Made by a program: the position numbers and the translations under genes. A DNA stretch of 64,000 nucleotides, from contig NZ_LN879468.1 of NCBI RefSeq assembly GCF_001403635.1, forward strand, positions 1,054,001 to 1,118,000. Direction: 5' to 3'. The stretch comes from Clostridium massiliamazoniense (GTDB lineage: Bacteria; Bacillota; Clostridia; Clostridiales; Clostridiaceae). The notes below the pieces were generated by a model. It made no database searches. It saw only the letters and a program-made list of their open reading frames with translations, and had not been told where the DNA came from. This document shows, one piece after another, positions 22,479-63,460 of this stretch; position 1 is the first letter of the stretch; every line of letters begins with the position of its first letter.

Positions 22479-22727
22479 GAGGATGTATCAAATTACAGAT
22501 ACATCCTTTCTGCCTTTTATCTAGCTATATAGATTCATCATCTGTGACCACTCACTTACGTAAAGAAGCTCTAATATTTTTTTCTACAACAGTTGCTAAA
22601 ATAAAGAGCTTCTAGTACTAGTTCAATGGCCACAGCATTTTGTACCTATATAGCTATCTCGGCAGATAAAAAATACATTTATAAAAGTAATATAAATTAA
22701 GGTGCTGATTTGATACAGCCCCTCTTT
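22479..22727 (+). repeat. Long palindromic repeat (family 1), copy A, about 250 bp
   Basis: It begins with hairpin GGATGTATC/GATACATCC (22481-22489, 22498-22506) right after hpt, followed by CTGCCTTTTATCTAGCTATA and GTGACCACTCA. It ends with the inverted arm: AATGGCCACAGCATTTTGTA, CTATATAGCTATCTCGGCAG and GATTTGATACAGCCCC. Compared with copies E and F, about 60 bp of the centre are missing. It fills most of the 353-bp gap between hpt and the convergent yunB gene. Confidence 0.85.
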
Positions 22728-22808
22728 TCTTATCTAACCATAGCTTTTTATAAAGTTCTTAGAAATTTGAAGTTTCACTTAACACCATTTCTTTTATTGT
22801 CTTTAAAG

Positions 22809-23501
22809 CTAATTTGTATTCCCCTCATTATTCATGCTTTCTTGAAATAAGTCCTTTCCAAAATTTACTCTTGGTACTTCCCCAACTATTATGGTCTCAC
22901 TTATTGGAATCTGATGAACAACCTCTGTTTCTGTACTTTGAAATGGTACTATTACCTTTAACTTTGTTTTCAGATTAATATAAATCTTATGTCTACTTTG
23001 ATTTATACCTGCACTTTCAAAAGTAGACGAATAGCTAGTTTCTACTCTTCCTATAGGCACCATTCTAATTCTTATTTTTGGTCCCCAATAAGCCATTATA
23101 CTATTCTTAGTAATATAACCTATGGGAATTTTGACTCCCACTTCACCTACATCTTTGATTTCCTCTTGTGATTCCATAGCAACTTCCATAGCTAAATCAT
23201 TTAATTTCGTTGTATCAGCCTTTAGCATTATAATCTTTCCATCACTATCCTTTTCAACTTTAATCATTTCATCGTAGTCAAAGTTTTCACCGTATATTTC
23301 ACTTATATTTTTATTTATTATGTCCGTTATCTTAGCTCTCATTTCACCATCTGCAACTGTTAAAACTGTTGGTGCAATAATACTATCAAAGTAATATATA
23401 AAGGTAAAAAATAATAAACTTAATGATATAGTTACTAAAACTATATAAAATTTAACTCTATTAAAAATTTTATATTTCCTTGTATAAGTTCTTTGATACA
23501 A
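22809..23501 (-). CDS. yunB: Sporulation protein YunB
   Basis: Membrane-anchored protein needed for proper sporulation in Bacillus relatives. An N-terminal membrane helix (FYIVLVTISLSLLFFTFIYY) is followed by an extracytoplasmic domain with the family pattern MRAKITDIINKNISEIY, VGEVGVKIPIGYITKNS, INLKTKLKVIVPF and SETIIVGEVP. The start is probably TTG 23501, with AGG 8 nt upstream; GTG 23510 overlaps that ribosome site. Its expression is presumably developmental, but no sigma-specific promoter was identified. Confidence 0.88.
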   Translation of the reverse strand: MYQRTYTRKYKIFNRVKFYIVLVTISLSLLFFTFIYYFDSIIAPTVLTVADGEMRAKITDIINKNISEIYGENFDYDEMIKVEKDSDGKIIMLKADTTKLNDLAMEVAMESQEEIKDVGEVGVKIPIGYITKNSIMAYWGPKIRIRMVPIGRVETSYSSTFESAGINQSRHKIYINLKTKLKVIVPFQSTETEVVHQIPISETIIVGEVPRVNFGKDLFQESMNNEGNTN

Positions 23502-23671
23502 ATTGTTCACCTACTTTTCTTTTTGTGTTTATGTTTAATCTTTACATTATTATGCTATAATAATAATGAATATTTAAATTTATTCAAAAAAATAAGGGGG
23601 AAATTATAAAATTAATTATTTTATAGCTTTTAACATTTCAAAGTGTTATTAAGTTATATTAATTTTAGAAA

Positions 23672-23700
23672 GGGGGAACCCGTTTTTATTAACGGAAATT
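23672..23700 (+). promoter_or_regulatory. Ribosome site separated from start by a small stem-loop
   Basis: GGGGG at 23672-23676 lies 24 nt before ATG 23701, which is too far for normal initiation. A 5-bp stem (23680-23684 CCGTT with 23691-23695 AACGG) occupies 16 nt of the spacer. If folded it brings the site to an effective 8 nt. This may make translation of the penicillin-binding protein conditional on folding; that is inference. Confidence 0.45.
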
Positions 23701-26265: not shown

Positions 26266-26311
26266 CTCTAAAATATATAATGAATAAACTTCATTTTAAA
26301 TTTTGATTATT

Positions 26312-26561: not shown

Positions 26562-28007
26562 ATGAATTCAATAAATACTATGCTTTCTTCTTTTAATGAT
26601 TTTCTTTGGGTCTATGTACTTATTGGACCACTTCTAGCATTAGGTCTTTATTTTTCATATAAAACAAAATTTGTTCAATTTGGATATTTTAAAGAAATGA
26701 TAAGACTTCTTGGTGATGGTTTTGGTAAGTCTTCTGATACTGAAGATAAAAAAGGAAAAAAGGGTGTTTCATCCTTTCAAGCCTTTTGTATAAGTACAGC
26801 TTCTAGAGTTGGTACTGGAAATATAACGGGTGTTACTATGGCTATCGCTACCGGGGGACCTGGAGCTGTTTTTTGGATGTGGCTTATTGCATTTATCGGT
26901 TCAGCTTCTAGCTTTGTAGAAAGTACTTTAGCACAAATATATAAAGTTAAAGATGGTGAAAACTTTAGAGGTGGACCTGCCTATTACATGGAAAAAGCTT
27001 TAGGAAAGAAATGGATGGGAATCTTATTTTCTATTCTTATTACAATTTGCTTTGGTTTTGTCTTTAACTCTGTTCAATCAAACACTGTATCTCAAGCATT
27101 TCAAGGAGCTTTTAATTTTAAAGCATCTCATATGGGGATACTATTAGCAATTTTAACAGGTCTTGTTATCTTTGGCGGAGTTCAAAGAATTGCAAAGGTT
27201 TCAGAAATCATCGTTCCTATCTTTGCAATGGCTTATATTTTAGTTGCAATTCTTATGATTTGTCTTAATATAACTTCTGTACCAACATTATTTAAAACTA
27301 TATTTCAAAATGCCTTTGGTATAAATCAAATAGCTGGTGGTACTTTAGGGGCTATTATTTTACAAGGGGTTAAAAGAGGACTTTTCTCTAATGAAGCTGG
27401 TATGGGAAGTGCACCTAATGCTGCAGCTACAGCAGATGTTAGTCATCCTGTTAAACAAGGTTTGATTCAAACTTTAGGTGTTTTTACAGATACAATGTTA
27501 ATATGTACTTGTACAGCTTTTATTATATTAATAGCTGGTAATTATACAGATGCTACAGTAAATGGTATACAACTTACACAAGCTGCTTTAGTATCTCAAT
27601 TTGGTCCTTTTGGTTCTTACTTCATAGCACTATGCATTTTCCTATTTGCCTTTAGTTCAATAATAGGTAATTACTATTATGGTGAATCTAATATAGAATT
27701 TATTATTCCAAAAAACAAAATAGTAATGATTATTTATAGAGCTCTTGTTGTTGGTATGGTATTCTTCGGTGCTCTAGCTAAAGTATCTTTAGTTTGGACA
27801 CTTGCTGATATATTCATGGCATTTATGGCTATACTAAACTTAATAGCAATTGCCCTTTTAGGAAAAATAAGTTTTGCAGCCCTTGAAGATTATAGAAATC
27901 AAAAGAAAAAAGGAATAAAAGAACCTGTTTTCTATAAGGATTCAATTCCAGGACTTCAAAATATAGAGTGTTGGGAAGAATCTCCTTTCGATGAGGAAGC
28001 CTTATAA
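26562..28007 (+). CDS. Alanine:sodium symporter (AGCS family)
   Basis: Sodium-driven importer of alanine or glycine in the cytoplasmic membrane. At 481 aa with about 10-11 membrane helices, it carries the AGCS signatures FCISTASRVGTGNITGVTMA, GGPGAVFWMWLIAFIGSASS and QGVKRGLFSNEAGMGSAPNA. The strong AAGGGGGG site lies just before ATG 26562. It stands alone between terminator hairpins; the downstream one is the tip of long repeat copy B. Substrate specificity (Ala, Gly or Gln) cannot be told from sequence alone. Confidence 0.93.
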   Translation: MNSINTMLSSFNDFLWVYVLIGPLLALGLYFSYKTKFVQFGYFKEMIRLLGDGFGKSSDTEDKKGKKGVSSFQAFCISTASRVGTGNITGVTMAIATGGPGAVFWMWLIAFIGSASSFVESTLAQIYKVKDGENFRGGPAYYMEKALGKKWMGILFSILITICFGFVFNSVQSNTVSQAFQGAFNFKASHMGILLAILTGLVIFGGVQRIAKVSEIIVPIFAMAYILVAILMICLNITSVPTLFKTIFQNAFGINQIAGGTLGAIILQGVKRGLFSNEAGMGSAPNAAATADVSHPVKQGLIQTLGVFTDTMLICTCTAFIILIAGNYTDATVNGIQLTQAALVSQFGPFGSYFIALCIFLFAFSSIIGNYYYGESNIEFIIPKNKIVMIIYRALVVGMVFFGALAKVSLVWTLADIFMAFMAILNLIAIALLGKISFAALEDYRNQKKKGIKEPVFYKDSIPGLQNIECWEESPFDEEAL

Positions 28008-28043
28008 TAGAAATTATTATAAAATATAAAATCTAACATATAG

Positions 28044-28142
28044 ATGATGTATCAAATTACAGATACATCCTCTCTGCCTTTTATCTAGCTATATAGGTTC
28101 ATCATTTGTGACCACTCACCTACGTAAAGAAGCCCTAATACT
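28044..28142 (+). repeat. Long palindromic repeat (family 1), copy B, left arm only
   Basis: It starts 36 bp after the symporter stop with GATGTATC/GATACATC hairpin arms, then CTGCCTTTTATCTAGCTATA, GTGACCACTCACCTACGTAA and AGAAGCCCTAATA, where similarity to the other copies ends. The right arm is absent. The rest of the gap to 28289 holds no recognisable gene. Confidence 0.8.
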
Positions 28143-29663: not shown

Positions 29664-29993
29664 ATGATAGAGATTAATGTTTTTGATTTCTTCTGGTTAG
29701 TAATAGGTATACTAGGTGCTATTTGCCTAGTATACCTTATAGTTCTTCTATTTAATATTACTAAACTAGTTAAGAATATAAATAACATTTTATTAGAGAA
29801 CAAAAAGGATTTGACAAAAAGTATAGAAAACTTACATGAAGTAAGTGATAATGTGAAAGACATAAGTAATGTACTTACAGAAACAACAGCTGAAGCCTTA
29901 ATAGTTAAGGATAATATAAGCAATCAAATAAACTCTTTTAAAGGTTCTATTGGTGCATTTCGTAATGCCTTTAGCCTTTTTAAAAGAAAATAA
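29664..29993 (+). CDS. DUF948-type membrane protein
   Basis: 109 aa with one N-terminal membrane helix (FFWLVIGILGAICLVYLIVL) followed by an amphipathic coiled-coil-like stretch (NLHEVSDNVKDISNVLTETT), as in DUF948 proteins that accompany YtxH. TTGGAGGAAAG precedes the ATG. It probably forms a membrane pair with the YtxH protein. A hairpin-rich decayed repeat lies just downstream and could end the transcript. Confidence 0.8.
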   Translation: MIEINVFDFFWLVIGILGAICLVYLIVLLFNITKLVKNINNILLENKKDLTKSIENLHEVSDNVKDISNVLTETTAEALIVKDNISNQINSFKGSIGAFRNAFSLFKRK

Positions 29994-30021: not shown

Positions 30022-30115
30022 TTAGAAGCTCTTCATTTCTACTACGGCTTTTGTAGAAGAAATGAAGAGTTTCTTTAGGTTGTAATCAATGATAAACTAT
30101 ATGGCTATCTAAAAC
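30022..30115 (+). repeat. Decayed long repeat (family 1), copy G
   Basis: AGAAGCTCTTCATTTCTAC pairs with a GTAGAAGAAATGAAGAG arm and then runs into TTTCTTTAGG, AATGATAAACTATATGGCTA and TCTAAAA. The order and wording match the inner half of copies E and F with many changes. The strong stem followed by TTTCTTT may also serve as the terminator of the YtxH-DUF948 operon. Confidence 0.55.
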
Positions 30116-30372
30116 ACTCCCCTAATCTCTCTCCTCTTTTTATGTAATTTAAAATATGTTATTAAATTCATATAATTCCATTTAGTTCTTTAAAAATTAT
30201 TCTATTTTTATATTAATTTAATATTCTATTAAATATATTAACTATTTTTTAATTCCATTGAATTTATACCATTATGTGTATATAATTTTTTTGTTTAGTA
30301 ATTTTAAACTTTATGTTTAGTGTAACTTACTTTTTATTAATAGGTTCCACTAAAAATTTATTTAAATGTATT

Positions 30373-30432
30373 ATGATAACTTCGACTATGTATTCAGATG
30401 GAGTCAAAACTCCACCTGAATTAAGTCTACGT
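30373..30432 (-). repeat. Short palindromic intergenic repeat (family 2), copy 3
   Basis: On the minus strand: AGACTTAATTCAGGTGGAG, a short loop, CTCCATCTGAAT, then the conserved tail CGAAGTTATCA. It lies just before the pot operon regulator, within a 468-bp gap whose other content is the decayed repeat copy G and plain AT-rich DNA. Confidence 0.7.
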
Positions 30433-30461
30433 TTATAAAAATATATGGAGGGATTAGTTAA

Positions 30462-32905: not shown

Positions 32906-32915
32906 TTATAAAATT

Positions 32916-33719: not shown

Positions 33720-34805
33720 ATGGGAAAAAAATTAAAATTCTTATCTCTATTACTAATTCCTTTATTAATATTTACAGGTTGTACTCTTAATAAAAAATCT
33801 GAAGATGATAAGAAAGATAAAAAAGATAATGTTCTTTATATATACAACTGGGGCGATTACATTGACCCAAGTCTTTTAAAGAAATTTGAAGATGAAACTG
33901 GTATAAAAGTTAAGTATGATGTTTTTGATACTAATGAAATAATGTATCAAAAAATTAGTAATGGTAGTTTAAATTACGACCTTATAATTCCTTCTGATTA
34001 TATGGTTGAAAAAATGATTAGCGAAAATTTATTGGCAGAACTTAACTTTGATAATATTCCTAACTACAAATATATAAATGATAATTTTAAAAATTTAGCT
34101 TATGATAAAGATAGTAAATATTCCGTACCTTATATGTGGGGTACTGTTGGAATAATGTATAATAAAAAAATGGTTAAGGAACCTGTTGATAGTCTTAATA
34201 TTCTTTGGGATGAAAAATATAAAGATCAAATAATAATGGTTGATAGTCCTAGAGATGCTTTTGGTTTAACTTTAAAGAAACTTGGTTATAGCCTAAACAC
34301 TACTAATCCACAAGAATTAGAAGCAGCTAAAAATGAACTAATAAAGCAAAAAAGCTCTGGCTTAATTAGAGCTTATATGGTTGATGAAGTTAAAGATGCA
34401 ATGCTGTCTGGTGAGGCTGCTCTTGCTGTAGTTTGGTCTGGTGATGCTATAACATTAATGGATGAAAATCCAGACTTAGGTTATGCATTCCCTAAGGAAG
34501 GTTCTAACAAATGGTTTGATGCATTATGTATTCCTAAAAATGCTAAACATAAAGAAAATGCAGAGAAATTTATTAATTTCCTATGTGACCCTGAAAATGC
34601 TGCTTTAAATGCTGAATATATAGGTTATTCAACTCCAAATACTGAAGCACTTAAATTACTTCCAAAGGAAGTTCAAGAAAATCCTGTAGCTTATCCTGAC
34701 TTATCAAAGCTTAATAATTTTGAAGTATTCATTGATTTAGGTAATGATGTAAATAGAGAAATTAACCAAGCTTGGATTGAAGTTAAAGCAACTAGAGAAA
34801 AATAA
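33720..34805 (+). CDS. potD: Spermidine/putrescine-binding lipoprotein
   Basis: Substrate-binding subunit. A lipoprotein signal ends at IFTGC with Cys21 as the lipidated residue, followed by a charged Lys/Asp linker. The mature part has VLYIYNWGDYIDPSLLKKFE, the PotD hallmark, and SVPYMWGTVGIMYN. At 361 aa it is of normal length. AAAGGAGG lies before ATG 33720. The transcript probably ends at the hairpin of long repeat copy C, which starts 9 bp after the stop. Confidence 0.95.
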   Translation: MGKKLKFLSLLLIPLLIFTGCTLNKKSEDDKKDKKDNVLYIYNWGDYIDPSLLKKFEDETGIKVKYDVFDTNEIMYQKISNGSLNYDLIIPSDYMVEKMISENLLAELNFDNIPNYKYINDNFKNLAYDKDSKYSVPYMWGTVGIMYNKKMVKEPVDSLNILWDEKYKDQIIMVDSPRDAFGLTLKKLGYSLNTTNPQELEAAKNELIKQKSSGLIRAYMVDEVKDAMLSGEAALAVVWSGDAITLMDENPDLGYAFPKEGSNKWFDALCIPKNAKHKENAEKFINFLCDPENAALNAEYIGYSTPNTEALKLLPKEVQENPVAYPDLSKLNNFEVFIDLGNDVNREINQAWIEVKATREK

Positions 34806-34813
34806 TAGAAAGA

Positions 34814-34884
34814 TGGGGATGTATCAAATTACAGATACATCCTCTCTTCCTTTTATCTAGCTATATAGCTATCTCGGCAGATGA
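34814..34884 (+). repeat. Long palindromic repeat (family 1), copy C, arms only
   Basis: About 70 bp: the GGGATGTATC/GATACATCC hairpin, CCTTTTATCTAGCTATATAG fused directly to the opposite arm GCTATCTCGGCAGATGA. The centre was lost, apparently by recombination at the shared AGCTATATAG word. The right arm overlaps the 3' end of the convergent 5'-nucleotidase gene and supplies its last codons and stop. Confidence 0.85.
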
Positions 34885-36588
34885 TAAAACTTCATGTAAA
34901 CTAAAATTTAATTTATAGAGATAATTTAAATTTAAAAATTGATTCCATACTCTCTCATCTTTTTTATTTATAATACTATTCTCTTTATATTCAAAAGTAA
35001 TTTCACCAAATTCCTTAAATTTTTCAATTAAAACATCTCGCACTGCTCTTCCTGTATCCTTAAAATCTATAGCTCCAGTAAAATCATAATTATCCCCTTT
35101 ATAATACATAAAATCATTAGTTACCACAGTATAGTACTTATCCATTTCTATTTCTGTCCCATCTAATAATTTCATAGAAGAAATCCTATTACCATAGTCC
35201 TTAGTACTATCGTAATATACATTTAATCCGTAAAATTGAATCCCTCCTATATTTTCATTCATTATGCCATGCTCCATTATTCTTTTTAAATCTGTTCCTT
35301 TTAATTTCATAGTTACTAAATTATTATCAAAAGGCATAATATCCCACATATCTCCTACTGTTATAATTCCTTTATTTAAAGTTCTTCTCATTCCACCACT
35401 ATTAATTAAACCTATTTGTGAACCTGATAATTCAACCATAGATTTTGTAATAAATTGCCCTAACATGGTAACACCATTAATAGTTCTTTTATGTGTCAAG
35501 TCCTTATCTATAAAAGCAACTTTTTCTTTTAATTTAGGGTTTAATTCTTTTTCATACTTATTAACTATATTCTTTATTTTTTTATCTTCTTTAAGATTAT
35601 TAATCCTTTTATAAAGTTTATCATAGGAAGGCTTTATATCTAAATTTCCATCAGGTCTTATAATTATTTCAAGCTTACCTAAAGCTCTACCATTACTTCC
35701 TGCCTGTACTATAGGAATATCATTTACAACCCCTGCAATATAAGTGTGACTATGACCTCCCACTATTCCATCAATACCTGTAGCTTTTTTAGCTAAGTTC
35801 TCTAATTCTCCTGTTATGGTTCCATCTGCTCCTTGCCTTCCACCTAAGTGACTTAAAACAATAACTATATCCACAGCTTTTTCTGTTTTTAAGTACTTAG
35901 CCCACTCACTTGCTGCCACTGCTGGGTCTTTAAACTCTAAGTCTTTTATATTTTCAGTTTTTGTTTTATATATACTTTCAGGAGTAGTAATTCCAATGAA
36001 CCCAACCTTAATCCCTTCAAATTCTTCAATAACATAGGGTTTAGCCCATTGTACTACTTCCTTTGTATTCTTATCTATTATGTTAGAACCAAGAAAATCT
36101 ATAGATTCTGACCACTTTTTTATTTTATCTAATCCCCAATCAAATTCATGATTTCCTATAGCTGTATATTTCATTCCCATTTCCTTCAAAACCTCTGAAA
36201 CAGGTTTTCCATATAATAAATTAGAAATTGCACTACCTTGATAAAGATCTCCACCACCCACTAATATAGTGTTTTTTTCTTCTTCTTTTATTCTTTTAAC
36301 TTCTGCCCCTAACTTAGGAGCACCAATATTTATTCCAGATTCAATTATACTTCCATGTAAATCATTTATAGTTAATATGCTTATTTTTTTATACTGTTCA
36401 CTTTCTTCATTAATATTTTTTAAAGTTTCTATAGTTACCCTTGAAGACTTTCTTGAACCTATAACTTTAGCTTCTTTTTCTAAAGATTCAAAAATTATTA
36501 AGTATAATGTAGGTGTAATTAAAATAAAAATTATAAAAAATATTAATAAATATACTATTATTTTTCTTTTAGTATTTCTATTCTTCAT
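34861..36588 (-). CDS. Membrane-anchored 5'-nucleotidase/metallophosphatase
   Basis: Surface enzyme that probably dephosphorylates extracellular nucleotides. At 575 aa it has an N-terminal signal-anchor helix (about 8-30). The calcineurin-type domain has LTINDLHGS, VGGGDLYQGS, TAIGNHEFDWG, VLSHLGG and GGHSHTYI as metal ligands. The 5'-nucleotidase C-terminal domain has INSGGMRRTLNKGIITVGD and MPFDNNLVTMKLKG. The last seven residues (SSAEIAI) and the TAG stop are encoded by repeat copy C, so the original C-terminus was probably different. ATG 36588 is chosen on the basis of the signal anchor. Confidence 0.93.
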   Translation of the reverse strand: MKNRNTKRKIIVYLLIFFIIFILITPTLYLIIFESLEKEAKVIGSRKSSRVTIETLKNINEESEQYKKISILTINDLHGSIIESGINIGAPKLGAEVKRIKEEEKNTILVGGGDLYQGSAISNLLYGKPVSEVLKEMGMKYTAIGNHEFDWGLDKIKKWSESIDFLGSNIIDKNTKEVVQWAKPYVIEEFEGIKVGFIGITTPESIYKTKTENIKDLEFKDPAVAASEWAKYLKTEKAVDIVIVLSHLGGRQGADGTITGELENLAKKATGIDGIVGGHSHTYIAGVVNDIPIVQAGSNGRALGKLEIIIRPDGNLDIKPSYDKLYKRINNLKEDKKIKNIVNKYEKELNPKLKEKVAFIDKDLTHKRTINGVTMLGQFITKSMVELSGSQIGLINSGGMRRTLNKGIITVGDMWDIMPFDNNLVTMKLKGTDLKRIMEHGIMNENIGGIQFYGLNVYYDSTKDYGNRISSMKLLDGTEIEMDKYYTVVTNDFMYYKGDNYDFTGAIDFKDTGRAVRDVLIEKFKEFGEITFEYKENSIINKKDERVWNQFLNLNYLYKLNFSLHEVLSSAEIAI

Positions 36589-41060: not shown

Positions 41061-41117
41061 TAAGATTTAATTCAACTAGAATTTTAACTCTAGTTGAATT
41101 TTAGCCGAAATTATCTA
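41061..41117 (+). repeat. Short palindromic intergenic repeat (family 2), copy 4
   Basis: The best-paired copy: TTCAACTAGA (41071-41080) with TCTAGTTGAA (41089-41098), perfect over 10 bp, then TTTTAGCCGAAATTATCT. It lies directly after asnA and may act as its terminator. Confidence 0.7.
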
Positions 41118-42713: not shown

Positions 42714-43172
42714 ATGTTTAAACTGAAAAAAACTGCTTTTCTTTTAACACTGTTTTTAATACTCATACCTAGTAAACTTGCCTTTTCTAAAGGTTTTAAC
42801 CTTCCTGAAAAATTGTTTACTAAAACTTATTATGAAAATAGCTCCTTTCAGACTCAGGAAAACAATATGAATCTAATAATAAACAATATTACTAGTAACA
42901 GAAAAAATATTTTAATAGACAGTTATTTTCTTAATAATTCAAAAAATAAAATAAAAACCATCACTAACTTTAACCTTATAATAAAGGATGAAAACAATAA
43001 TATTATCTTAGATGCTCTCTTTCCAGAGATTCCTTTAGAAGAAGGCTTAGCATTACTTCAAGGAAAAAAGGTCTTACTTTCCTTACCAAAGGATAAAAAC
43101 GTTCCTATTTCTAAGATAAAAAACTTAAGTAATATCTATTATGAATTTACATATAACTATACCCTAAATTAA
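42714..43172 (+). CDS. Secreted hypothetical protein, 152 aa
   Basis: An N-terminal signal peptide (TAFLLTLFLILIPSKLAFS) is followed by a small Asn-rich exported domain with beta-type stretches (MNLIINNITSNRKNILIDSY, NFNLIIKDENNNIILDALFP). No lipobox or anchor is visible. TTGAGGAGG precedes ATG 42714. The layout recalls small exported SLAP- or FxLYD-like domains, but no family can be named with confidence. It is followed after 8 bp by repeat copy D, whose hairpin may end the transcript. Confidence 0.65.
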   Translation: MFKLKKTAFLLTLFLILIPSKLAFSKGFNLPEKLFTKTYYENSSFQTQENNMNLIINNITSNRKNILIDSYFLNNSKNKIKTITNFNLIIKDENNNIILDALFPEIPLEEGLALLQGKKVLLSLPKDKNVPISKIKNLSNIYYEFTYNYTLN

Positions 43173-43179
43173 AAACATA

Positions 43180-43277
43180 GAGGATGTATCAAATTATAGA
43201 TATATTCTCTATGCCTTTTATCTGGCTATATATGTTCATCATTTGTGACCACTCACTTACGTAAAAAAGCTCTAGCT
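43180..43277 (+). repeat. Long palindromic repeat (family 1), copy D, left arm only
   Basis: It starts right after the upstream stop with GGATGTATCAAATTATAGAT (hairpin partly eroded), then TGCCTTTTATCTGGCTATAT, GTGACCACTCACTTACGTAA and AAAAGCTCTAG, after which similarity ends. Confidence 0.8.
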
Positions 43278-46800: not shown

Positions 46801-49800
46801 ATTAATATATCTCCTTTAGTTGTTTGTACTGTAACATATGTTTTATCCTTTATATTAGGGTAAATATTATATATTATTGTTTGATCACTATCTCCAAATG
46901 TATTAGGTAACTTAACAGTATTACCTTTATTTACATTATTAACTGTTATATTTTCTACGTGATATCCCTCTGGTATAGTAGGTGTTTTAAGATTAGTTTT
47001 TTCTCCTGTAACACCTGAAACTGTTTGTGTGCTTATTACCTTATCACCACTTGATGTATGCTCTACTACCTCAACTTTATCGTTGATTATTTTTCCTATA
47101 GTATAAATTATATTCTGATCACTATCTCCAAAAATACTTGGAACTCCATTAACACTTTCACCTTTACTATTTGTTATACTAATAATCTTATAACCATTTG
47201 GTATTATTGGAACTTTTAATCCTGTATTCTTTCCTGTAATACCTGTAGCTGTCTCTGTCTCACCTATTTGTTTTCCAGTTGAATCCACCACCTTAACTGT
47301 ATCTGTATATGTAGGAATCTTTCCTATTGTATAAACAATTGTTTGATTATCTTTTGATTGTGTTGTTGGTACTTCACTTTGTGGAACCGCTTTTCCATTA
47401 ACTGTAACTTTTGTTACTTGATATCCTTCTGGTAATTTAGGTAATCCTGTATTTACCTTTGAACCAATATCATTTGTTGTTATCACTGATGGTACAACTG
47501 GTTTTCCATTACTATAATTTTCTGTAACTGTTGTAGTTGCCTTTGAAACTACTGATGTAACAGATTTTATTTTCTTTATGTTAAATACAACTTCTGTTAA
47601 TCCTGTATTATCCATTATTCCTGTATTTTCAAACCAACTTAAATCTCTAACTTTCCCATTAACTGTTATATTCACTAATTGATAGCCTAACTTAGCCAAT
47701 GCTTCTTTATCCTGTGATAATGTTACCTCATTCATCAATTTAGTTGGTGTATTATCATAGTTTTCATCTATATCTGGACCATTTCCTATAAGATCTTTTA
47801 ATGTAACTGTTTTACCATCTACAGTTATAGTTTTATTTAAGTCATCTTGAGTTAATGTTCCTCCATCAACTTCCTTAACAGTTGAAATCCAACTATTTGA
47901 AAGATTTGTTCCTGGTGGTGTTATATTAACTATATTACTAGTTGAACCAATATTATCTGTTGCATCATAATATTTATATGCTGAGTTAACAACTTCTGGT
48001 AGACCATCTGTATTTGGACCTTGCTTTAATTTAACATTATAGGTCATGTTAAATTCTCCTCTAGATTGAACAGTAGGTGTTGTAAAATATCCTATTACAT
48101 TACTTAAATTCATTCCAGGTGTATATTTAACCCAGCCACTACCTGGACTTTCTACATATTTTAATGCATCTTTTAAATCATTGCCATTAGGACTTGTAAG
48201 TATCTTTTCATTTTCAGCATTCATTGCTGATTTAGGCAATATCCAAGTTGGTGCTCCTCCTGTATTTAATGTTTGAAGTTCAGTACTTAATCCTCCAGTA
48301 CTCGGCTCTCCATCATTTCCAGGTAAATTATTAGAACCTGTTGTTGGAATTTCTCCTGCTATATAATAAGTCTTAGTCATCTCATTATTATTTACAACAA
48401 TATCTTGTAACTTAACACTTCCACCTGGTAAAGTTGTAGCATTATGAATACAATCATTTGATATTGTTTTTGATACAACTATCTTTGTATTATAACTATT
48501 TATAGTAGGCATACCACCTTCTTGTACTGGTACTGTAGTATTATTATACTGATATTCCATACCATCACTCTTATTTGCCCCACTTAATGAAGCTCCTAAG
48601 TTTATATTATTTATATCTGATGGGTTTGTATATTGTGCCTCATATGTTATATCTGGTGCTGAACTTAATGACTGTGCTTCAGCTTTTGTTATATGGAATA
48701 TAATCTTATTTCCTTCAACTTTATAATTATTTGGACCTAATTTTACTGAACCAAAAAATATTGGAGTTTTATCGATTAATTTAAATGAGTGCCCCATATC
48801 AACTGTTATAGTTGTGTTATTAAGCATTAATGAAGGTCCCGTACCATATCCTTGTATATTAACTGAAAATTCATGAGGTTTTAAGAACCATGAATATTGT
48901 GTTGTAGTTACTGTACTTGCTGTAGAAGCACCTATATTGTCTACAGTTACACCTATTTCAGCTTCGCCACTATTAGTAGCTGCTGACAATCCATGTGAAT
49001 AATCTCCATATCTTTCATCTGTTATCTGGCTGATATGATTATTTGCTACATCTTCATCTGTATATGAATTTGGAGGAGTTAAAATAAATCCTTTTAATTT
49101 ACCATTATTATCTATCACTCCATCACTTAGCAATTGTCCATTCTTTAATGCATCGCTCATCTTTTTTTGGTCTGACTCTGAATAACTTCCTGTTAAATCA
49201 CCAAATGTTATTGTTCTTGATATAACTGGCGTTCCACTACCTTTTAATGGTGCTGTTATATAACTTGAACCATCACTAAAATTAGAACCATCATATCCTT
49301 TTTCAACATAAGTAAAGTTTAATGATGGTACTGTCTTACCTTCATTCATTAAAGTTTGTAATTCTGAAGCTGTATATTTAACACCTATACCATTCATATT
49401 ACCTGCTACTATATCTTCCATTATCTGTGCTTTCTGAGCTGGTGTACCACTTTTTAATATATTAACTGCATTATCATCTAAATGACAATAAACTTGTCCA
49501 TTATTAATTAAATTTACTCCTTGTGGTGCATTAGCATCTTTTACTACTATTTGTCCATTTGTAATTAATGATCCTGTATATACATTATATTTACCCGGAA
49601 CACCTGTAGTCATTGTTGATCCAAAGCTTACTAAATTATCATTATATCCCATATCATTTGATTGAGTTGAATATGATGTTTGTGATGTTTGTGTCATTGA
49701 AAAATGTTCACCAAAATTACGTTGCTTTAATATAACTTGTCCACCATAGTAATTCATTTTTGTAGCTTCAGAAGAATTAATATTGCTTGATGAACTTTCT

Positions 49801-50870
49801 AGTTCTTCTTTTACTGGTGTTACTGTTATAGGAACTCTTAATTGGTTATCTGTATTTGTTGTAATTTTAAATAAATTTTTACTTGTATTTAATAAATTAG
49901 CTGATACAGTATATGTTCCATTAGAATTCTTAATTAATCCAGGTATATTTAATGGTGTTATTGTTATTTCCTTAGGATCTGGATTATTTATATTAAATGT
50001 TACTGTTTTAACATTTTGATTTTTTGGGCTATAAACTCCTGGAGAATAAGGTGTTACTTGATTATTTATATTAATACTCATATAATGAGTATTTTTATCA
50101 CTACTATCTGGTACTAAACTAGGAGTCGCAATTACATTATCTGTATACTGCATGGTTTCCTTTATAGGATTTACCTTAATTGGAACTTGAATAGTTTTGC
50201 CACTTGGCGTAGTTAAATTTAAAGTTATATTTGGAAGTACCTTTGCATTCCAATCAGCTTCATTTAATTGGAATGATGCAGTTATAACAAAGGTTGATGT
50301 ACTATTTAAGTTCTTTAATTTCCCTAATTGTACTTGTATTGATTGTTGCAATTGGGCTAAAGCAGCCTTTTCCTGTGGAGTTTCATTTTTAATTCCCATA
50401 TATGATACTATAGGATTAGCTGATAATGATGCACTGCTTACAGGATATAATTGTCCAGTTCTACTTCTTAAAGATACTGATATTTGGTAGTTAACTATAG
50501 TTCCACTTGTTGCTATATCCCCTGTTGATGGTACATTATTTTCTGGTTGATAACTTGTATTATCAGTATTTGATCCTGTTGATATTTTAGACATTTTTAC
50601 ATTTGTTACATCTATCTGTAAATCCTTTGAATAATCTATTGATGAACCATTTGAAATAGAATTTGTACCTGTATTAATAGCTGTAAAATTAGCAGTATGA
50701 GTTATATTTGGTAAAGTCTTTCCCCCTGTAATTTTGTTTATAAAATCAGGATTTGACTTATTTTCTAACATTACATTATTTTGTGTTTTTACTGTATGTT
50801 GTGTCATTAATGTCACTGTACCTACCATAGCCGACATTGCTAATATGGTCTGAATTTTCTTTTTCACCAT
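43806..50870 (-). CDS. Giant LPXTG-anchored surface adhesin with MucBP-like repeats
   Basis: Cell-wall protein of 2354 aa from ATG 50870 (GGAG 10 nt upstream; ATG 50879 is too close to it). A signal segment (IQTILAMSAMVGTVTLMTQ) is followed by about 1075 residues of unassigned Ser/Thr/Asn-rich beta-type sequence. Nine to ten MucBP-like repeats of about 70-85 residues follow (about 1100-1900), each with a P-x-I-P-x-GY-x-V-x-x-I-x-V-N-G core and an IVYNI-type end. A Pro/Thr/Lys/Gly low-complexity repeat block and a Ser/Thr/Asn stalk come next. The protein ends LPHTG, a hydrophobic helix and FFRRKK for sortase. A role in mucus or host binding is inferred. Monocistronic, with a strong terminator. 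Confidence 0.9.
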   Translation of the reverse strand: MVKKKIQTILAMSAMVGTVTLMTQHTVKTQNNVMLENKSNPDFINKITGGKTLPNITHTANFTAINTGTNSISNGSSIDYSKDLQIDVTNVKMSKISTGSNTDNTSYQPENNVPSTGDIATSGTIVNYQISVSLRSRTGQLYPVSSASLSANPIVSYMGIKNETPQEKAALAQLQQSIQVQLGKLKNLNSTSTFVITASFQLNEADWNAKVLPNITLNLTTPSGKTIQVPIKVNPIKETMQYTDNVIATPSLVPDSSDKNTHYMSININNQVTPYSPGVYSPKNQNVKTVTFNINNPDPKEITITPLNIPGLIKNSNGTYTVSANLLNTSKNLFKITTNTDNQLRVPITVTPVKEELESSSSNINSSEATKMNYYGGQVILKQRNFGEHFSMTQTSQTSYSTQSNDMGYNDNLVSFGSTMTTGVPGKYNVYTGSLITNGQIVVKDANAPQGVNLINNGQVYCHLDDNAVNILKSGTPAQKAQIMEDIVAGNMNGIGVKYTASELQTLMNEGKTVPSLNFTYVEKGYDGSNFSDGSSYITAPLKGSGTPVISRTITFGDLTGSYSESDQKKMSDALKNGQLLSDGVIDNNGKLKGFILTPPNSYTDEDVANNHISQITDERYGDYSHGLSAATNSGEAEIGVTVDNIGASTASTVTTTQYSWFLKPHEFSVNIQGYGTGPSLMLNNTTITVDMGHSFKLIDKTPIFFGSVKLGPNNYKVEGNKIIFHITKAEAQSLSSAPDITYEAQYTNPSDINNINLGASLSGANKSDGMEYQYNNTTVPVQEGGMPTINSYNTKIVVSKTISNDCIHNATTLPGGSVKLQDIVVNNNEMTKTYYIAGEIPTTGSNNLPGNDGEPSTGGLSTELQTLNTGGAPTWILPKSAMNAENEKILTSPNGNDLKDALKYVESPGSGWVKYTPGMNLSNVIGYFTTPTVQSRGEFNMTYNVKLKQGPNTDGLPEVVNSAYKYYDATDNIGSTSNIVNITPPGTNLSNSWISTVKEVDGGTLTQDDLNKTITVDGKTVTLKDLIGNGPDIDENYDNTPTKLMNEVTLSQDKEALAKLGYQLVNITVNGKVRDLSWFENTGIMDNTGLTEVVFNIKKIKSVTSVVSKATTTVTENYSNGKPVVPSVITTNDIGSKVNTGLPKLPEGYQVTKVTVNGKAVPQSEVPTTQSKDNQTIVYTIGKIPTYTDTVKVVDSTGKQIGETETATGITGKNTGLKVPIIPNGYKIISITNSKGESVNGVPSIFGDSDQNIIYTIGKIINDKVEVVEHTSSGDKVISTQTVSGVTGEKTNLKTPTIPEGYHVENITVNNVNKGNTVKLPNTFGDSDQTIIYNIYPNIKDKTYVTVQTTKGDILIPSKEIGSGVPGEKEDVVIPNIPQGYKVVKVTVNNTEVTPSKDNKYEVTNNIDKNNEVDNHIVITVEHEPVQDTIKVVEGDKAISTTTTKSGMPGDKVEITNLNIPKGYHVESITVDGKTVSKVPATYGNSNQTIVYNITQNKNNDIQADVVTESGKVLVNNTIVAKGPEGSDVTCDKTEIPEGYHLDKVLYNGKVISSVTGGKVICILPDTIPTGKEGQITYVVSPNTSTVNVQVTDGTQTFSNHTTTGDVGSNITGNTPTIPEGYHVTNITVNGHVTSEKDLPKVYGNKNTTIIYHVTKIPTGDIQQTVVTTDGTVIEKPTTIASGDIGSKVTIKPYTPPKGYHIVKVEIDGKELTSQEEKDLIHNLPSSINSPKTEIVKYVIAKDTRPSTTEKGTITVYIENQQGNVIPGTEKTYTGVVGSNTPDMVPTIPAGDTFNGITKGQVTPVSGLPKTFSQGSQVYIYHVISHKGKLTYTVEINGKSIKSETLTGTDGDTASYNLPHNKNLKLTNIIVNGKEIPVEGNSDYHGKFTTDGTQVIYKYERITPSTSGNVNHNGGNTTPSQSGDKGNTSNKGDNTPSKGGNTTPSHDSGDNTPSKPNKGDNTQNKGDNTPSGNVNHNGGNTTPSQSGDKGNTPNKGDNTPSKGGNTTPTHDSGDNTPSKPNKGDNTPSGNVNHNGGNTTPSQSGDKGNTSNKGDNTPSKGGNTTPTHDSGDNTPLKPNKGDNTQNKGDNTPSKGGNTTPSHDNGDNTPSKPNKGDNTQNKGDNTQNKGDNTPSGNVNHNGGNTTPSQSGDKGNTSNKGDNTPSKGGNTIPSHDNGDNTPSKPNKGNNTPSGNKDTNNGGSTKTSTSTHTEVTGGREAHSTGTASNTVPNVVSGGNNGNTVTPHVVVNTTGSNGITPTVSNSTSSNGVVSNNTTTSNGNDTTPFNSSSVSSSAGSTYTDNNLVNGPNEDNSTAQTVLPHTGLSTQGVENTAEQAGVLAGIMAMLGGAFFFRRKK
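44290..45165 (-). repeat. Tandem DNA repeats coding the Pro/Thr-rich stalk
   Basis: About 0.9 kb of near-identical units. Four units start at GNVNHNGGNTTPSQSGDKGN and carry variable numbers of KGDNTPSKGGNTTP, KGDNTQN and GDNTPSKPNKGD modules. Unit lengths differ by whole modules, and copies are almost identical at DNA level, so the block probably expands and contracts by recombination. It is also a likely assembly trouble spot. Confidence 0.85.
45165..47575 (-). repeat. MucBP-like domain repeats within the adhesin
   Basis: Nine to ten diverged copies of a domain of about 70-85 residues. Recurring words are PEGYHVENITVN, PKGYHVESITVD, PEGYHVTNITVN and PQGYKVVKVTVN, followed by FGDSDQ/YGNSNQ and II/VYNI. 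Copies are diverged, unlike the stalk block, so they are old duplications. Confidence 0.8.
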
Positions 50871-51512
50871 TTTGTTCATTCTCCTTATATTTATTCTTTT
50901 GCTTTATAAATGAATTCTAATTCACTTATATTATTTTTTACTATATGTAATTACATAAATATACATTTAAATATAACTTCATCTTTTATTACTTAACAAT
51001 TATTTTAACTCTACCATTTTAGTATACTTTACAAATTACACATACTGCTATTTTCAATTAATAACTACTTAACAATTTTCTAATTTATAAAATAGCTTTG
51101 ATTAAATATAGTATGTCATCGGTACATATTACTATATTTAACCAAAAATATTTTTATTAAATTAATATTTATTTTAATTAATTTTCTTTAGTATTTTAAT
51201 AATTAAATCAAGTATATTAAATTTATATAAATATTTAAATTTGTTTCAGTAAGCAATCATCACTATGGTACTTTATTCTTTTTTATAATAAAAATTAAAT
51301 AAGCGAAAATATCCATTCCACTTTTCTTTATAGGAATTTTCTATATCCAAATTATCTTTTTCTATATATAATTATACAATTATATATATAGTTTGTAAAA
51401 TATTTTAATTTATTTATAACATATTATTAAGATTTTAATTGTATAACAATACCCTTCCCCAAAAATTCTAAATAAAGTAAATTTTTTTATCAAATATATA
51501 TGAAAATTTTTA
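50871..51512. other. Long upstream region of the adhesin gene with a palindrome
   Basis: About 640 bp without a gene, more than 75 percent A+T by eye. A long imperfect palindrome lies at 51100-51143: GATTAAATATAGTA with TACTATATTTAACC around GTCATCGGTAC. It could be a regulator-binding site or a terminator; it has no T-run. It lies about 230 bp before the adhesin start. No other structure was recognised. Confidence 0.45.
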
Positions 51513-60671: not shown

Positions 60672-60793
60672 CTAAATCACCACCCCCTTGATTATTCTAT
60701 AATATTATTTAACCCTTATAAATAAAATTTTGGATTATTGACTTATTTTTTACATATTAGTTTATAAAATACAATATTAAAGCAAAAAATAAA

Positions 60794-61085
60794 GAGGTTG
60801 TATCAAATCAACCACTTTATTTATATTACTTTTTTTCATCTGCCGAGACAGCTATATAGGTACAAAATGCGGTGACCATTGAACTAGTACTAGAAGCTCT
60901 TTATTTTTGAACAATAGTTTCGTGAAAAAATTTCCACTGTTTGAACAAAGTGAGTTTGGAAATTTTAGAAACTGTTGTAGAAAAAATATTAGAGTTTCTT
61001 TACGTATGTGAGTGGTCACAAATGATGAACCTATATAGCTAGATAAAAGGCAGAGAGGATGTATCTGCAATTTGATACATTCTCT
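60794..61085 (-). repeat. Long palindromic repeat (family 1), copy E, full length
   Basis: About 290 bp. Read on the minus strand it starts with GAATGTATCAAATTGCAGAT and the GATACATCC hairpin arm, 21 bp after the TPR gene stop, and ends GATTTGATACAACCTC. The two halves are imperfect inverted copies, and the centre contains TTCCACTG and the GAAATTTTTTCACGAAACTA arm. The reading frame inside it (60852-61070) is not a gene. It fills most of the 434-bp gap. Confidence 0.88.
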
Positions 61086-61105
61086 TAAATAATTTATATT
61101 AAAAT

Positions 61106-62026
61106 TTATATGGAATCTAATCTTGATTTAAAATCAGGTGAGTTTACAATAACTCTTAAATCCTCATCTTTATATATATGTTTAAGAAAATTAGGATATA
61201 ATTTTATTGCTTCTATTAAATCATCTATGGCCTCTTCTTCATTACCATTTAAAGCATAAAAACAAGCCCTGTTATAGTATAAAAATTCACTTTCCTTATT
61301 TGCTTTTATCCCTTCTGAAATAACTTCTATAGCTTTTTTTAAGTTACCTTCTTCCTTATAAATTACAGATAAATTTAAAAAACTATAAGGGTATTCTCTT
61401 TCTTTTTCAATAGCCTTTTTATAAAAGATTTTACTTTTATCTATTAAATTTAGCTTTTTATATATAACTGCCATATTAAATAAAGCTCTATGATTATTTT
61501 TATCAATTTCTAATGCTCTTTGAAAAAGTCTATATGCCTTATTATTCTCATTAAGCTCTTCATATATCGAACCTAGATTCATAATTCCCCAAAAATCATT
61601 AGGACATAATTCTAATAATCTCTCATAGTATTTTATTGCTTCTTTCTTCTCTCCAGATATATCTAATGCATTGGCTAAAAAGAATATTCCTCTATCATAA
61701 ATTGGATTTATCTCAACTGCCTTTTTATAATATTCTATTGCTTTTTCATATTCTTCTTCCTCATCATAAATAACAGCCATACCGTAATAAGCTCTTGGCT
61801 CTAAATTATCTATTTTTATTGCAGCTTTATAATATTCCTTTGCCTTTTCTATCATAGATAATTCATCATATACTAAGGCTATATTTATCATAAGGTCTAT
61901 GTCCTTCTCTTCTTCTAAAAGCTCTGTGGCCCTTAAATAATAATTTAAAGCCTTTATAAGTTCTCCCTTATCATGATATTCTTCACCTTTTTTAATATAA
62001 TTATTTATAATACTTTCCTTTTTCAT
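61106..62026 (-). CDS. Tetratricopeptide repeat protein
   Basis: 306 aa, soluble, made of about eight TPR units of 34 residues. Clear units contain YYLRATELLEEEKDIDLMIN, AKEYYKAAIKIDNLEPRAYY, AIEYYKKAVEINPIYDRGIF and AYRLFQRALEIDKNNHRALF. It has no signal peptide or enzymatic domain, so it is a cytoplasmic scaffold or adaptor with unknown partners. AGTAGG precedes ATG 62026. Confidence 0.93.
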   Translation of the reverse strand: MKKESIINNYIKKGEEYHDKGELIKALNYYLRATELLEEEKDIDLMINIALVYDELSMIEKAKEYYKAAIKIDNLEPRAYYGMAVIYDEEEEYEKAIEYYKKAVEINPIYDRGIFFLANALDISGEKKEAIKYYERLLELCPNDFWGIMNLGSIYEELNENNKAYRLFQRALEIDKNNHRALFNMAVIYKKLNLIDKSKIFYKKAIEKEREYPYSFLNLSVIYKEEGNLKKAIEVISEGIKANKESEFLYYNRACFYALNGNEEEAIDDLIEAIKLYPNFLKHIYKDEDLRVIVNSPDFKSRLDSI

Positions 62027-62078
62027 AATATACCTACTTTTCCTATGTAATAACTAAAATAATACTATATTAAATAAG

Positions 62079-62116
62079 CAGGCTACAGCCACGTCCATAA
62101 TGAACGTGGTTTTACG
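62079..62116 (-). other. Isolated GC-rich hairpin, possible IS200/IS605-type end
   Basis: On the minus strand CCACGTTCATTATGGACGTG G forms a 9-bp stem with a 3-nt loop (62089-62109). It stands out from the AT-rich surroundings and is followed by CTGTAGCCTGC. Imperfect subterminal hairpins of this look occur at IS200/IS605 right ends, but no transposase or second end is present. It could equally be the terminator of the kinase-fold gene. Confidence 0.35.
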
Positions 62117-62262
62117 CCCTTACTTATATATAATTCAAATAAACTGACTTCCTTTATTTATAATAATCTATCCTTATCATAAAATTAATCTCTTATTACT
62201 TTATCATAAGCTAATCTAAAAATGTAATTAAATATTTATAACACTAATTACTAAGTACTTTA

Positions 62263-62856
62263 TTATTTCTTATTATATACTAAATATCTCTTTATCTTAT
62301 ACTTCCAATATATAGCTTTTTCTCTATCTATATCTTTTATTAATTCTAAAAACTCTTCAAGAACTCCTCTCTTCCATAAGCCTTTCATTAAGTGCCTTGG
62401 ATAGGTTACTCTCTTTATATAATTTTTCTTTGGATCGATGACCATTAACTTACATGTCTCTGTGTTATAAAACAAATCTTTGCATCTTATATCAAGTCTT
62501 TTAAATCTTAATCTATTAAACTCACATATCATATCATAAATTTCTCTTGCTAATATTTTATCCATTTTATGATTCTTTAAATATTTATCTAGTCTCTGGC
62601 CCTCAACATAATCTCTAACTATATAATTGTCACCTATCTCATGTATTCTAGGAAAAAATCTAGAGCCTCTAACTCTTTTTAAAATATAAGCTTCATCTAT
62701 CCATGATTGATGTCTTCTAAAAAACTTAACACTTCTATTATGACTAAGTAGAAAAACTATTCCATTATGTCCTTCACCTATCTTCACGGCATTTTTCATT
62801 TCATCCTCAAGTTCCCTCGAAACTTCTAAAGAACTATAATCAAAATTTTTACTCAT
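62263..62856 (-). CDS. Small atypical protein-kinase-fold protein
   Basis: 197 aa. The N-lobe is recognisable: IGEGHNGIVFLLSHNRSVKF F gives a Gly-rich loop and the VAIK-type Lys, followed by a Glu helix (DEAYILKRVRGSRFFPRIHE) and hinge IVRDYVEGQRLDKYL. The catalytic loop is altered: RLDIRCKDLFYN replaces H-x-D-x-x-x-x-N, and VIDPKK stands where DFG is expected. It is shorter than typical kinases and lacks the substrate-binding lobe. It could be a RIO/Kdo-kinase-like enzyme or a pseudokinase. GAGG precedes ATG 62856. Confidence 0.7.
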   Translation of the reverse strand: MSKNFDYSSLEVSRELEDEMKNAVKIGEGHNGIVFLLSHNRSVKFFRRHQSWIDEAYILKRVRGSRFFPRIHEIGDNYIVRDYVEGQRLDKYLKNHKMDKILAREIYDMICEFNRLRFKRLDIRCKDLFYNTETCKLMVIDPKKNYIKRVTYPRHLMKGLWKRGVLEEFLELIKDIDREKAIYWKYKIKRYLVYNKK

Positions 62857-62947
62857 TTCATCCTCTAGATAATATTACTTTATTAATTATATGATAAAAA
62901 TAAAAAAAAGAGACACTTTCGACAACAAATTGCAAAAGAATCTCCAT

Positions 62948-63035
62948 TGGTGCAGATAATGGGACTTGAACCCATACGAGCATAAGCTCACTACCCCCTC
63001 AAGATAGCGTGTCTGCCATTCCACCACATCTGCAC
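62948..63035 (-). tRNA. tRNA-Leu (anticodon GAG)
   Basis: A class II tRNA of 88 nt including an encoded CCA. The acceptor stem is GTGCAGA/TCTGCAC, the anticodon arm is CTATC-TTGAGGG-GGTAG with GAG at the anticodon, the long variable arm is TGAGCTTATGCTCG, and the T-arm is ATGGG-TTCAAGT-CCCAT. It reads CUC and CUU leucine codons. Confidence 0.95.
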
Positions 63036-63151
63036 ATATTAAATTAAACCTTATTATAATTATGGTAACATATTCAAACACTAATGTAAACTAAATTTCT
63101 AATTATTTTCTTATCTCATAAATTTATCTGATAACTAACTAAAATTCAAAA

Positions 63152-63460
63152 AGGGGCTGTATCAAATTTAGCACCTTAATTTATATTACTTTTATAAATG
63201 TATTTTTTCATCTGCCGAGATAGTTATATAGGTACAAAATGCTGTGACCATTGAACTAGTGCTAGAAGCTCTTTATTTTTGAACAATAGTTTCGTGAAAA
63301 AATTTCCATTATTTAAACGAAGTGAGTTTGGAAATTTTAGAAACTGTTGTAGAAAAAATATTGGAGCTTCTTTACGTAAGTGAGTGGTCACAAATGATGA
63401 ACCTATATGGCTAGATAAAAGGCAGAGGAGATGTATCTGTAATTTGATACATCCCCTCTT
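63152..63460 (-). repeat. Long palindromic repeat (family 1), copy F, full length
   Basis: About 310 bp and the best-preserved copy. On the minus strand it starts GGGGATGTATCAAATTACAG with its GATACATC hairpin, 10 bp after the transglycosylase stop, and ends GATACAGCCCC. The arms AGGCAG ... TAGCCATATAGG and CTGCCGAGATAGTTATATAG are mutual inverted copies. It fills the gap between the transglycosylase gene and the tRNA. Confidence 0.9.

Follow-up and report, generated by a model that had tools for sequence, protein, structure and literature searches.

The 64,000-nucleotide stretch of DNA analysed here (the window) harbours a family of long palindromic repeats. Six recognisable copies, A to F, were all found at the positions given by an earlier sequence-only reading, and a decayed seventh copy proposed near 30022 proved to be real (nhmmer E 1.7e-4, match 30114-30047, minus strand). 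Copies E (60785..61086, minus) and F (63151..63461, minus) are of full length and 93% identical over 255 nt; with distances here and below taken on the strand of the gene, between its stop codon and the left tip of the copy, they lie 22 bp past the stop of ORF 61106-62026(-) and 13 bp past the stop of ORF 63471-63923(-), respectively. Copy A (22476..22731, plus), 23 bp past the stop of ORF 21931-22455, which encodes a phosphoribosyltransferase domain, has both arms without the apical hairpin present in E and F. Copies B (28040..28142, plus), 36 bp past the stop of a Na:Ala symporter gene (26562-28007), and D (43176..43274, plus), 7 bp past the stop of ORF 42714-43172, are indeed one-armed, each retaining only the left arm, which is conserved in the family over about 95-99 nt. 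Copy G (30026..30134, minus) is the decayed one, and its orientation is opposite to that of the upstream gene 29664-29993.

Copy C (34810..34897, plus), 8 bp past the stop of a solute-binding protein gene (33720-34805), had been described as keeping both tips, which needs correction: its left tip (34810-34868) is fused to a right-arm piece of about 37 nt (34861-34897), and the right terminal hairpin was not found. The two pieces overlap at the 8-mer CTATATAG (34861-34868), as expected if the stretch separating its occurrences in the two arms had been deleted. The convergent ORF 34861-36588 takes its stop codon (34861-34863) from copy C, which overlaps the last codons of this neighbour; no ORF of at least 80 aa was found within the window copies. 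With a length of about 90-310 bp, lack of coding capacity and seven copies in the window, the family has the size and multicopy character of miniature inverted-repeat transposable elements (MITEs), and its tips AGAGGGGATGTATCAAAT / AGAGGGGCTGTATCAAAT form terminal inverted repeats, as MITEs do, that are imperfect and differ by copy.

The repeat was said always to follow a stop codon in a fixed orientation, and this holds for six of the seven copies (A-F), the exception being the reversed copy G, which is not preceded by a stop codon in its own sense. A random oriented intergenic point has a probability of 0.066 of falling no more than 36 bp past a stop (window, 49 longest-ORF genes), and the chance of finding six of six copies so placed is about 8e-8, or about 5e-7 for six of seven. 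Since copies A-D are located between convergent ORFs, where either orientation faces a stop, only the short distance of the left tip is informative there, and the evidence for orientation rests on E and F by virtue of their tandem context.

The class to which these copies belong folds as one long imperfect hairpin; the full copies that were measured span about 240-310 bp, and longer forms reach 477 bp. On either strand, the folds of copies A, E and F are stronger than those of dinucleotide-shuffled versions (z -6.8 to -10.8, 60 shuffles each). The apical domain of E (60915..60974, minus) consists of a 7-bp stem, a UA / 6-nt internal loop, a 9-bp stem and a 20-nt loop. Covariance model R3, built from 17 non-window sequences, matched this domain with 75.2 bits (E 1.7e-16) and that of F (63287..63346, minus) with 67.7 bits (E 1.5e-14), the next-best match having an E-value of 1.1; all E-values from this model are rough owing to a short calibration. 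The 20-nt apical loop and the UA / YUUMAC internal loop are conserved across the class, and a second conserved internal loop was seen by eye. Among the variable pairs of the window core, G-U was counted in 7 antisense and 2 sense cases, numbers that are too small for use.

The apical centre of E and F is widespread among relatives. A pattern allowing at most 2 mismatches found it in 24 of 206 Clostridiaceae genomes, with up to 63 copies, while the reversed-pattern control gave 3 matches in total over the same genomes. The best match for AsnA in these 206 genomes stood at 73%. Model R2, which includes window rows, matched 20 of 398 Bacillota genomes at E <= 0.001, and part of these matches were examined as regions. 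Plasmids of Aureibacter and Sulfurovum (Bacteroidota and Campylobacterota) carry the centre as well, as seen by blastn and by R2 scores of 61.5-76.5 bits. A search of 68 genomes with copy F gave weak matches in 16, mostly to AT-rich sequence close to the right tip, and a pair in genome G010 led to the relatives; the relatives' loci comprise 60 motif places from the pattern scan and others added later, with most copies of G106-G108 left out. Exact patterns of the window arms had no match in genome contigs or in viral contigs, blastn of copy F found nothing in plasmids or phages, and the ends of the window family bear only a loose resemblance to those in the related genomes G105-G109. A left-arm model, R1, matched 7 of 206 genomes at E 0.002-0.007, and these were taken as chance hairpins. 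In the literature, the core sequence as text was unmatched, and no description of such a MITE or palindrome was found by title and abstract start, in a coverage with most subscription journals outside it and with another name for the element being possible.

Orientation relative to stop codons could be followed in these relatives, with longest ORFs as genes and orthologous loci each counted separately. Among 80 relatives, 44 had a close stop solely on the motif-sense side and 8 solely on the opposite side (p 2e-7); 25 had no close stop and 3 had stops on both sides. This set includes one Bacteroidota locus (L160), and L140, a crowded cluster with three motif copies, was left out. A wider set of 27 pointed the same way, with 11 on the motif-sense side only against 2 on the other (p 0.011), no close stop in 11 and start codons close on the right in 7. 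The 27 are drawn from 46 matches of model R2, after omission of loci already in the set of 80 (L142 with 2 matches, L141 with 3, and L160), of L140 (7), the viral L181 and L182 and one weak match in L192, and of L193, L196 and L200 near contig ends. Both within the window and among its relatives, a close stop on one side is mostly on the motif-sense side, and these counts establish this as a bias.

Insertion accompanied by an 8-bp, AT-only target duplication is shown in one related genus. At locus L117 the element occupies a site in G109 of which the orthologue is empty in G105 and G108 (one locus, two empty genomes), and the insertion lies at a stop codon with the 8-bp duplication AAAATTTA. 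Five further loci (L089, L095, L099, L104 and L114) have the same boundaries and 8-bp duplications, bringing the number to 6 of 43; in the remaining 37 no duplication was found at the shared boundary, repeats of 7-10 bp inside the palindrome or off this boundary being excluded from the count. Terminal inverted repeats GGCGCTGTTAAAGC / GGCTATGTTTAAGA were found 135, 231, 200, 51 and 142 times in G105 to G109, respectively, and once in the control. The proposal of a non-autonomous MITE-like element is supported in relatives by terminal repeats, six duplications and one empty site; at window copies A, E and F, no target duplication was recognised by eye.

In the same five genomes, none of the transposase loci inspected for four Pfam families was enclosed by two ends of the element. 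PF12762 was present in none of the five, PF01610 in three, PF13610 in two (one over the cut-off) and PF00872 in four; 10 loci were inspected for 15 PF01610 matches, 8 for 8 of PF13610 and 7 for 7 of PF00872. Four loci (L221, L231, L232 and L233) had solitary ends of the element, or a small element, in their vicinity. The closest insertion sequence end belonged to an IS256-type copy, L237, which has an 8-bp duplication; its end GGCTCTGTAAAAAATTTTGTGTAAAC agrees with GGCTCTGTTAAAGTACTGTGTTGAAA of the element in 15 of 26 letters, a similarity equalled by 23 of 20,000 shuffles.

Taken as a whole, the repeat in the window is probably one species' family of a widespread group of small, non-autonomous, MITE-like mobile DNA elements. 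A DDE-type transposase, possibly of the IS256 family, would move the element by acting in trans on its ends. Once inserted, the hairpin would be transcribed as the last part of the host gene's mRNA, and in the window species the tips may serve as terminators or message-end caps. A single orientation behind the stop codon may be harmless or useful and would hence be kept. The half copies and copy C probably represent decay of the long palindrome through slippage between arm repeats, and a protein probably binds the conserved loops.

The strong folding, the conservation of loops across genera and a sense that matches the upstream gene in most copies with a close stop on one side would also suit a structured RNA, that is, a regulatory or stability element of the 3'-UTR or a small RNA that was vertically inherited, amplified and selected as RNA. 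This reading is unlikely. In an alignment of 19 of 35 domains, those of equal length, two-sided changes were found in 13 of 16 pairs, with 76 two-sided and 2 one-sided cells, which is unlike the expectation for RNA. Cells were paired in 95.1% against 69.0% in shuffles (95.2% without the window rows), where the inner stem was chosen beforehand for pairing and the outer stem, which was not, reached 90.2%. In the inner stem of all 35 distinct domains, taken with no pairing filter, 303 of 306 cells were Watson-Crick pairs, 1 was G-U, none A-C and 2 other. Stems that differ and yet stay complementary, almost without G-U, are more suggestive of DNA than of RNA. Also against an RNA are the lower folding energy of the antisense strand in the full copies A, E and F (not in C and D) and the target duplications and empty site in relatives. 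Rfam 15 at gathering score gave no family over the repeat in the window, where only a tRNA was found, and the sole match in 14 relatives was a T-box at another place in L050; among the sub-threshold matches none was credible for the repeat, and 'drum' and 'skipping-rope' were absent.

The tips invite the reading of a self-spreading terminator, mobile either as an intrinsic terminator itself or by inserting into such terminators, and retained because it ends transcription. The left-tip hairpin of A (22480..22507, plus; GGATGTATC...GATACATCC) has equivalents in B-F and is thus retained in all six copies, the right tip in three. The right-tip hairpins of A (22700..22723, plus), E (60787..60822, minus, 14 bp) and F (63151..63177, minus) are each followed by T-rich sequence and resemble terminators in form, as do the left hairpins of C and F. 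A scan of the 55 bp between the convergent stops at copy C finds no terminator besides that of the element, and two standalone terminators (6178-6209 and 10612-10633) have a GGGGTTGTA stem in common with the tips' GGGGATGTA / GGGGCTGTA. The T-run of the left hairpin is short, however, with four T beginning 1-8 nt past the stem depending on the copy, and the right ends of the relatives in G105-G109 showed no terminator tail. The suggestion that terminators are targeted is not supported at L117, the one observable site, where the insertion in G109 coincides with the stop codon and precedes an apparent native terminator hairpin. A terminator spreading on its own account is a rather improbable source of the family.

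Far less probable are recombination sites of gene cassettes resembling attC, one-orientation imperfect hairpins behind genes that are used by a site-specific recombinase: position and orientation at stop codons, motif copies close together in G232 and G253 and two tyrosine recombinase genes adjoining the copy on Aureibacter pAT2 are in their favour, but the centre is conserved and not the ends, the helices vary, and L117 is an insertion of the element alone, with its neighbouring genes still in synteny and with an 8-bp duplication (seen once). Palindromes of the REP/BIME type, spread by a Y1 (RAYT) transposase on single-stranded DNA, would share DNA-like hairpins with conserved loops and a location at gene ends, but are just as improbable, given the inverted ends and 8-bp duplications in relatives, neither of which is known as a feature of HUH/Y1 insertion.

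The reading as MITE-like elements can tentatively be carried further, to a possibility which we rate below the mobile-element explanation itself. The class could consist of DNA hairpins mobile across phyla and defined by their loops, not by stems or ends, inserting specifically at or immediately behind stop codons along the direction of transcription, with a protein recognising the folded loops. Arm-to-arm correction would keep the helices Watson-Crick while the sequence changes, so that each species comes to have its own version.

What was an unexplained repeat of one species is now joined to a class in three phyla with a structural signature of its own. Should the orientation be fixed on insertion, the element would follow a targeting rule that is unusual among transposable elements, namely a stop codon read along transcription; should selection set it, the class would offer a natural experiment on the tolerance of gene ends. 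The loop signature also provides a search model for further families and for the missing helper.

Among known repeats, the window family may be Clop-1, compared here by description only. Clop-1 is the only C. perfringens family in Table 3 of a survey of stem-loop repeats that included C. perfringens 13 (Cozzuto et al. 2008, PMC2267715), where it is an intergenic stem-loop with a 93-bp model and 44(28) copies; the name occurs twice in the main text, both times in tables (Tables 3 and 4). The model is close in length to the left arm of the window family, and those tables say nothing of a palindrome over the full length, of orientation, of a stop-codon rule or of relatives. From the tabulated 44 copies per 3.03 Mb, about 0.9 would be expected per window, whereas the window family has 6-7. 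ISCpe7 of C. perfringens, an IS6-like element with an 8-bp target duplication that is listed from a clostridial group (PMC6807381), is a possible helper by its 8-bp duplication alone; loci of this type (IS6-type, PF13610) in G105-G109 had no flanking pair of the element's ends.

The likeness to MITEs of DDE insertion sequences lies in short length, lack of coding sequence, inverted ends, 8-bp duplications as seen in relatives and many copies, and the difference lies in a looped core common to genera and phyla, in differing ends and in the orientation bias at stop codons. Integron attC sites are imperfect palindromes that fold, follow stop codons in a single orientation, keep their ends conserved and are mobilised together with their gene. 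The present class resembles them in fold, stop-codon site and single orientation, and falls outside them in keeping its centre and inserting as a unit with target duplication. ERIC, BOX, NEMIS and REP/BIME are multicopy intergenic palindromes that are probably transcribed, and are alike in this multicopy intergenic palindromic form. Such palindromes are also discussed in the survey that lists Clop-1 (PMC2267715). Compared with these palindromes, the class described here keeps its loops, swaps its stems both between and within genomes, and reaches several phyla.

The six recognisable copies of the palindromic hairpin element, A (22476..22731), B (28040..28142), C (34810..34897) and D (43176..43274) on the plus strand and E (60785..61086) and F (63151..63461) on the minus strand, lie where the sequence-only reading placed them, as does the decayed seventh copy at 30022. 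Its claim that the element always follows a stop codon in fixed orientation holds for A-F, whose left tips are found 7-36 bp downstream of a stop codon and on the same strand as that gene, but not for the seventh, decayed copy, which is reversed. The window has 10,910 intergenic bases and 49 genes, called as longest ORFs; on that basis a randomly oriented intergenic point meets the same criterion with a probability of 0.066, and six of six by chance with about 8e-8. Four of the six copies sit between convergent ORFs, so that for these the rule is carried by distance, and the evidence from orientation comes from E and F.

E and F each constitute a single long imperfect hairpin, with a left-tip hairpin (GGATGTATC...) outermost, followed by a long stem and an internal loop, which in F reads CTTACGTAAAGAA on the left side and TTCTAGCACTAG on the right, with single-base differences in E. 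Moving inward, a further stem leads to a UA / UUUCAC internal loop, beyond which a 9-bp stem is capped by a 20-nt apical loop (AACTCACTTTGTTCAAACAG in E). The apical hairpin is missing from copy A; B and D retain the left arm, and copy C has an internal deletion at the 8-mer CTATATAG. The element tips are inverted repeats, and in A, E and F the right tip has the form of a terminator. When these three copies were compared, a single two-sided pair change was seen in the left-tip hairpin; the right-tip hairpin had one such change, in the antisense consensus structure only, and one broken pair. Standalone terminator-like hairpins are also present at 6178-6209 and 10612-10633 (-), with a GGGGTTGTA stem close to that of the element tip. 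A second short hairpin repeat (ATTCAG...CTGAATT) occurs at 11561-11605 (+), 16559-16608 (-), 30392-30436 (+) and 41070-41114 (+), and a 2357-aa ORF on the minus strand (43806-50879), for which no PDB relative was found at E 1e-10, harbours internal repeats at 44293-45192 spaced 102-213 nt.

Among 206 genomes of one Clostridium family, that of Clostridium MAG G001, which we take as Clostridiaceae, the AsnA protein closest to that of the window was 73% identical, and a PBP1A query against the contig collection gave one relative at 48%. A weak match in one genome, G010, pointed to a 249-bp repeat present as two copies 99.6% identical, 72% self-complementary over about 200 bp and with the same centre as the window element. 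Allowing up to 2 mismatches, this centre pattern was present in 24 of the 206 genomes, with as many as 63 copies in one, while a reversed control gave 3 matches overall. Loci were fetched by the centre pattern (60), then as 20 further stretches, and 20 more from a wider search. The Clostridiaceae loci have in common the apical loop, a UA / YUUMAC loop and, judged by eye from family consensuses, the second internal loop; their helices differ. With a model that included the window rows, the apical domain was found in 20 of 398 genomes sampled evenly across the phylum, and blastn with one relative matched two plasmids of Aureibacter tunicatorum (Bacteroidota) and one of Sulfurovum mangrovi (Campylobacterota). 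The copy on Aureibacter pAT6 (L160:3656-3715) is found within a type I-D CRISPR locus, where cas7d and cas5d flank it, and that on pAT2 (L183:4995-5054) adjoins two neighbouring tyrosine recombinase genes.

Longer versions of the element (L100:1890-2330, and in the fetched loci L087, L096, L112, L113 and L118) carry, inward of the right arm and next to the apical hairpin, additional sequence that can form hairpins, and 4 of 12 measured end pairs span 418-477 bp. In G176 several model matches fall on both strands within 1.6 kb (L140:5700-7320). The palindrome arms in G137 are locus-specific (L129; L131 = L142:14590-14930), and at L131, where two genes converge, they extend across both stop codons and give the two genes mirror-image ends. 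Several copies lie near contig ends in G413, G545, G579, G359 and G001, as expected if such repeats break draft assemblies.

Beyond the window species the stop-codon rule persists as a bias, with exceptions; this preference may be set when the element inserts or by later selection. Scoring stop codons up to 180 bp from the centre by motif-sense side, the first set (n=80, one Bacteroidota locus included) had 44 loci with a stop on the motif-sense side only, 8 on the other only, 3 on both and 25 on neither (p 2e-7), and the wider set (n=27) had 11, 2, 3 and 11, respectively (p 0.011), with start codons close on the right in 7. A looser nearest-neighbour count gave 56 versus 23 of 83, and 23 versus 6 of 30. 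In both counts loci were taken singly, orthologues included, and genes were longest ORFs.

In 19 equal-length apical domains, admitted if the inner stem had at most 1 unpaired position with G-U allowed, 95.1% of cells were paired, against 69.0% in shuffles and at most 50.9% in slides, with two-sided changes at 13 of 16 pairs. The outer stem, outside that selection, was 90.2% paired, and the overall figure without the window rows was 95.2%. A model built from 17 non-window rows matched E at E 1.7e-16 and F at 1.5e-14, the next match being at E 1.1. In 35 distinct apical domains taken without a pairing filter, the inner stem held 303 Watson-Crick pairs, 1 G-U, 0 A-C and 2 other. Because the stems vary strongly among these domains, yet the paired changes show no G-U intermediates, a DNA palindrome maintained by arm-to-arm correction, or recognition at the DNA level, seems to fit better than RNA selection. 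The pairing is less clean in the copies from the window, with several A-C and G-U pairs between the arms.

Mobility was seen in relatives. The element at locus L117 in G109 is flanked as AAAATTTA-element-AAAATTTA, and the orthologous sites are empty, with a single AAAATTTA in G105 and a one-letter variant in G108. The same element ends were found with other 8-bp AT-only duplications at five further loci (in total 6 of 43 examined), and such ends number 135, 231, 200, 51 and 142 in G105-G109, respectively, against 1 in the control. Taken together, the empty orthologous sites, the duplications and the many ends indicate that the class moves, at least in the genus of G105-G109. A search of these genomes for a helper among four transposase families found none; the ends of one IS256-type copy are partly similar to those of the element (15 of 26 letters), and this copy also has an 8-bp duplication.

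At L117 the insertion converts a TAA stop codon into TAG, and an apparent native terminator hairpin lies downstream of it. As this native terminator is still present in G109, termination is unlikely to be the role of the class as a whole. For the window, we think that the hairpin may form the end of the message from the gene upstream, its tips serving as putative terminators or caps. All six copies have kept the left hairpin, and three of the six the right tip. At copy C, which now provides the convergent ORF with its stop codon, a scan of the 55 bp separating the two stops found no other terminator.

In the literature searched, judged by titles and abstract openings, no earlier description was found of the complete palindrome, of its placement after stop codons or of a class that spans phyla, and Rfam gave no match for the window element or the relatives compared with it. 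The element is filed as of the MITE kind, its helper and, in the window species, its target duplication being predicted features. One C. perfringens repeat family, Clop-1, appears in Cozzuto et al. 2008 (PMC2267715), an intergenic stem-loop of 93 bp in 44(28) copies; were the window from C. perfringens, as the sequence-only reading supposed, its family would probably be Clop-1.
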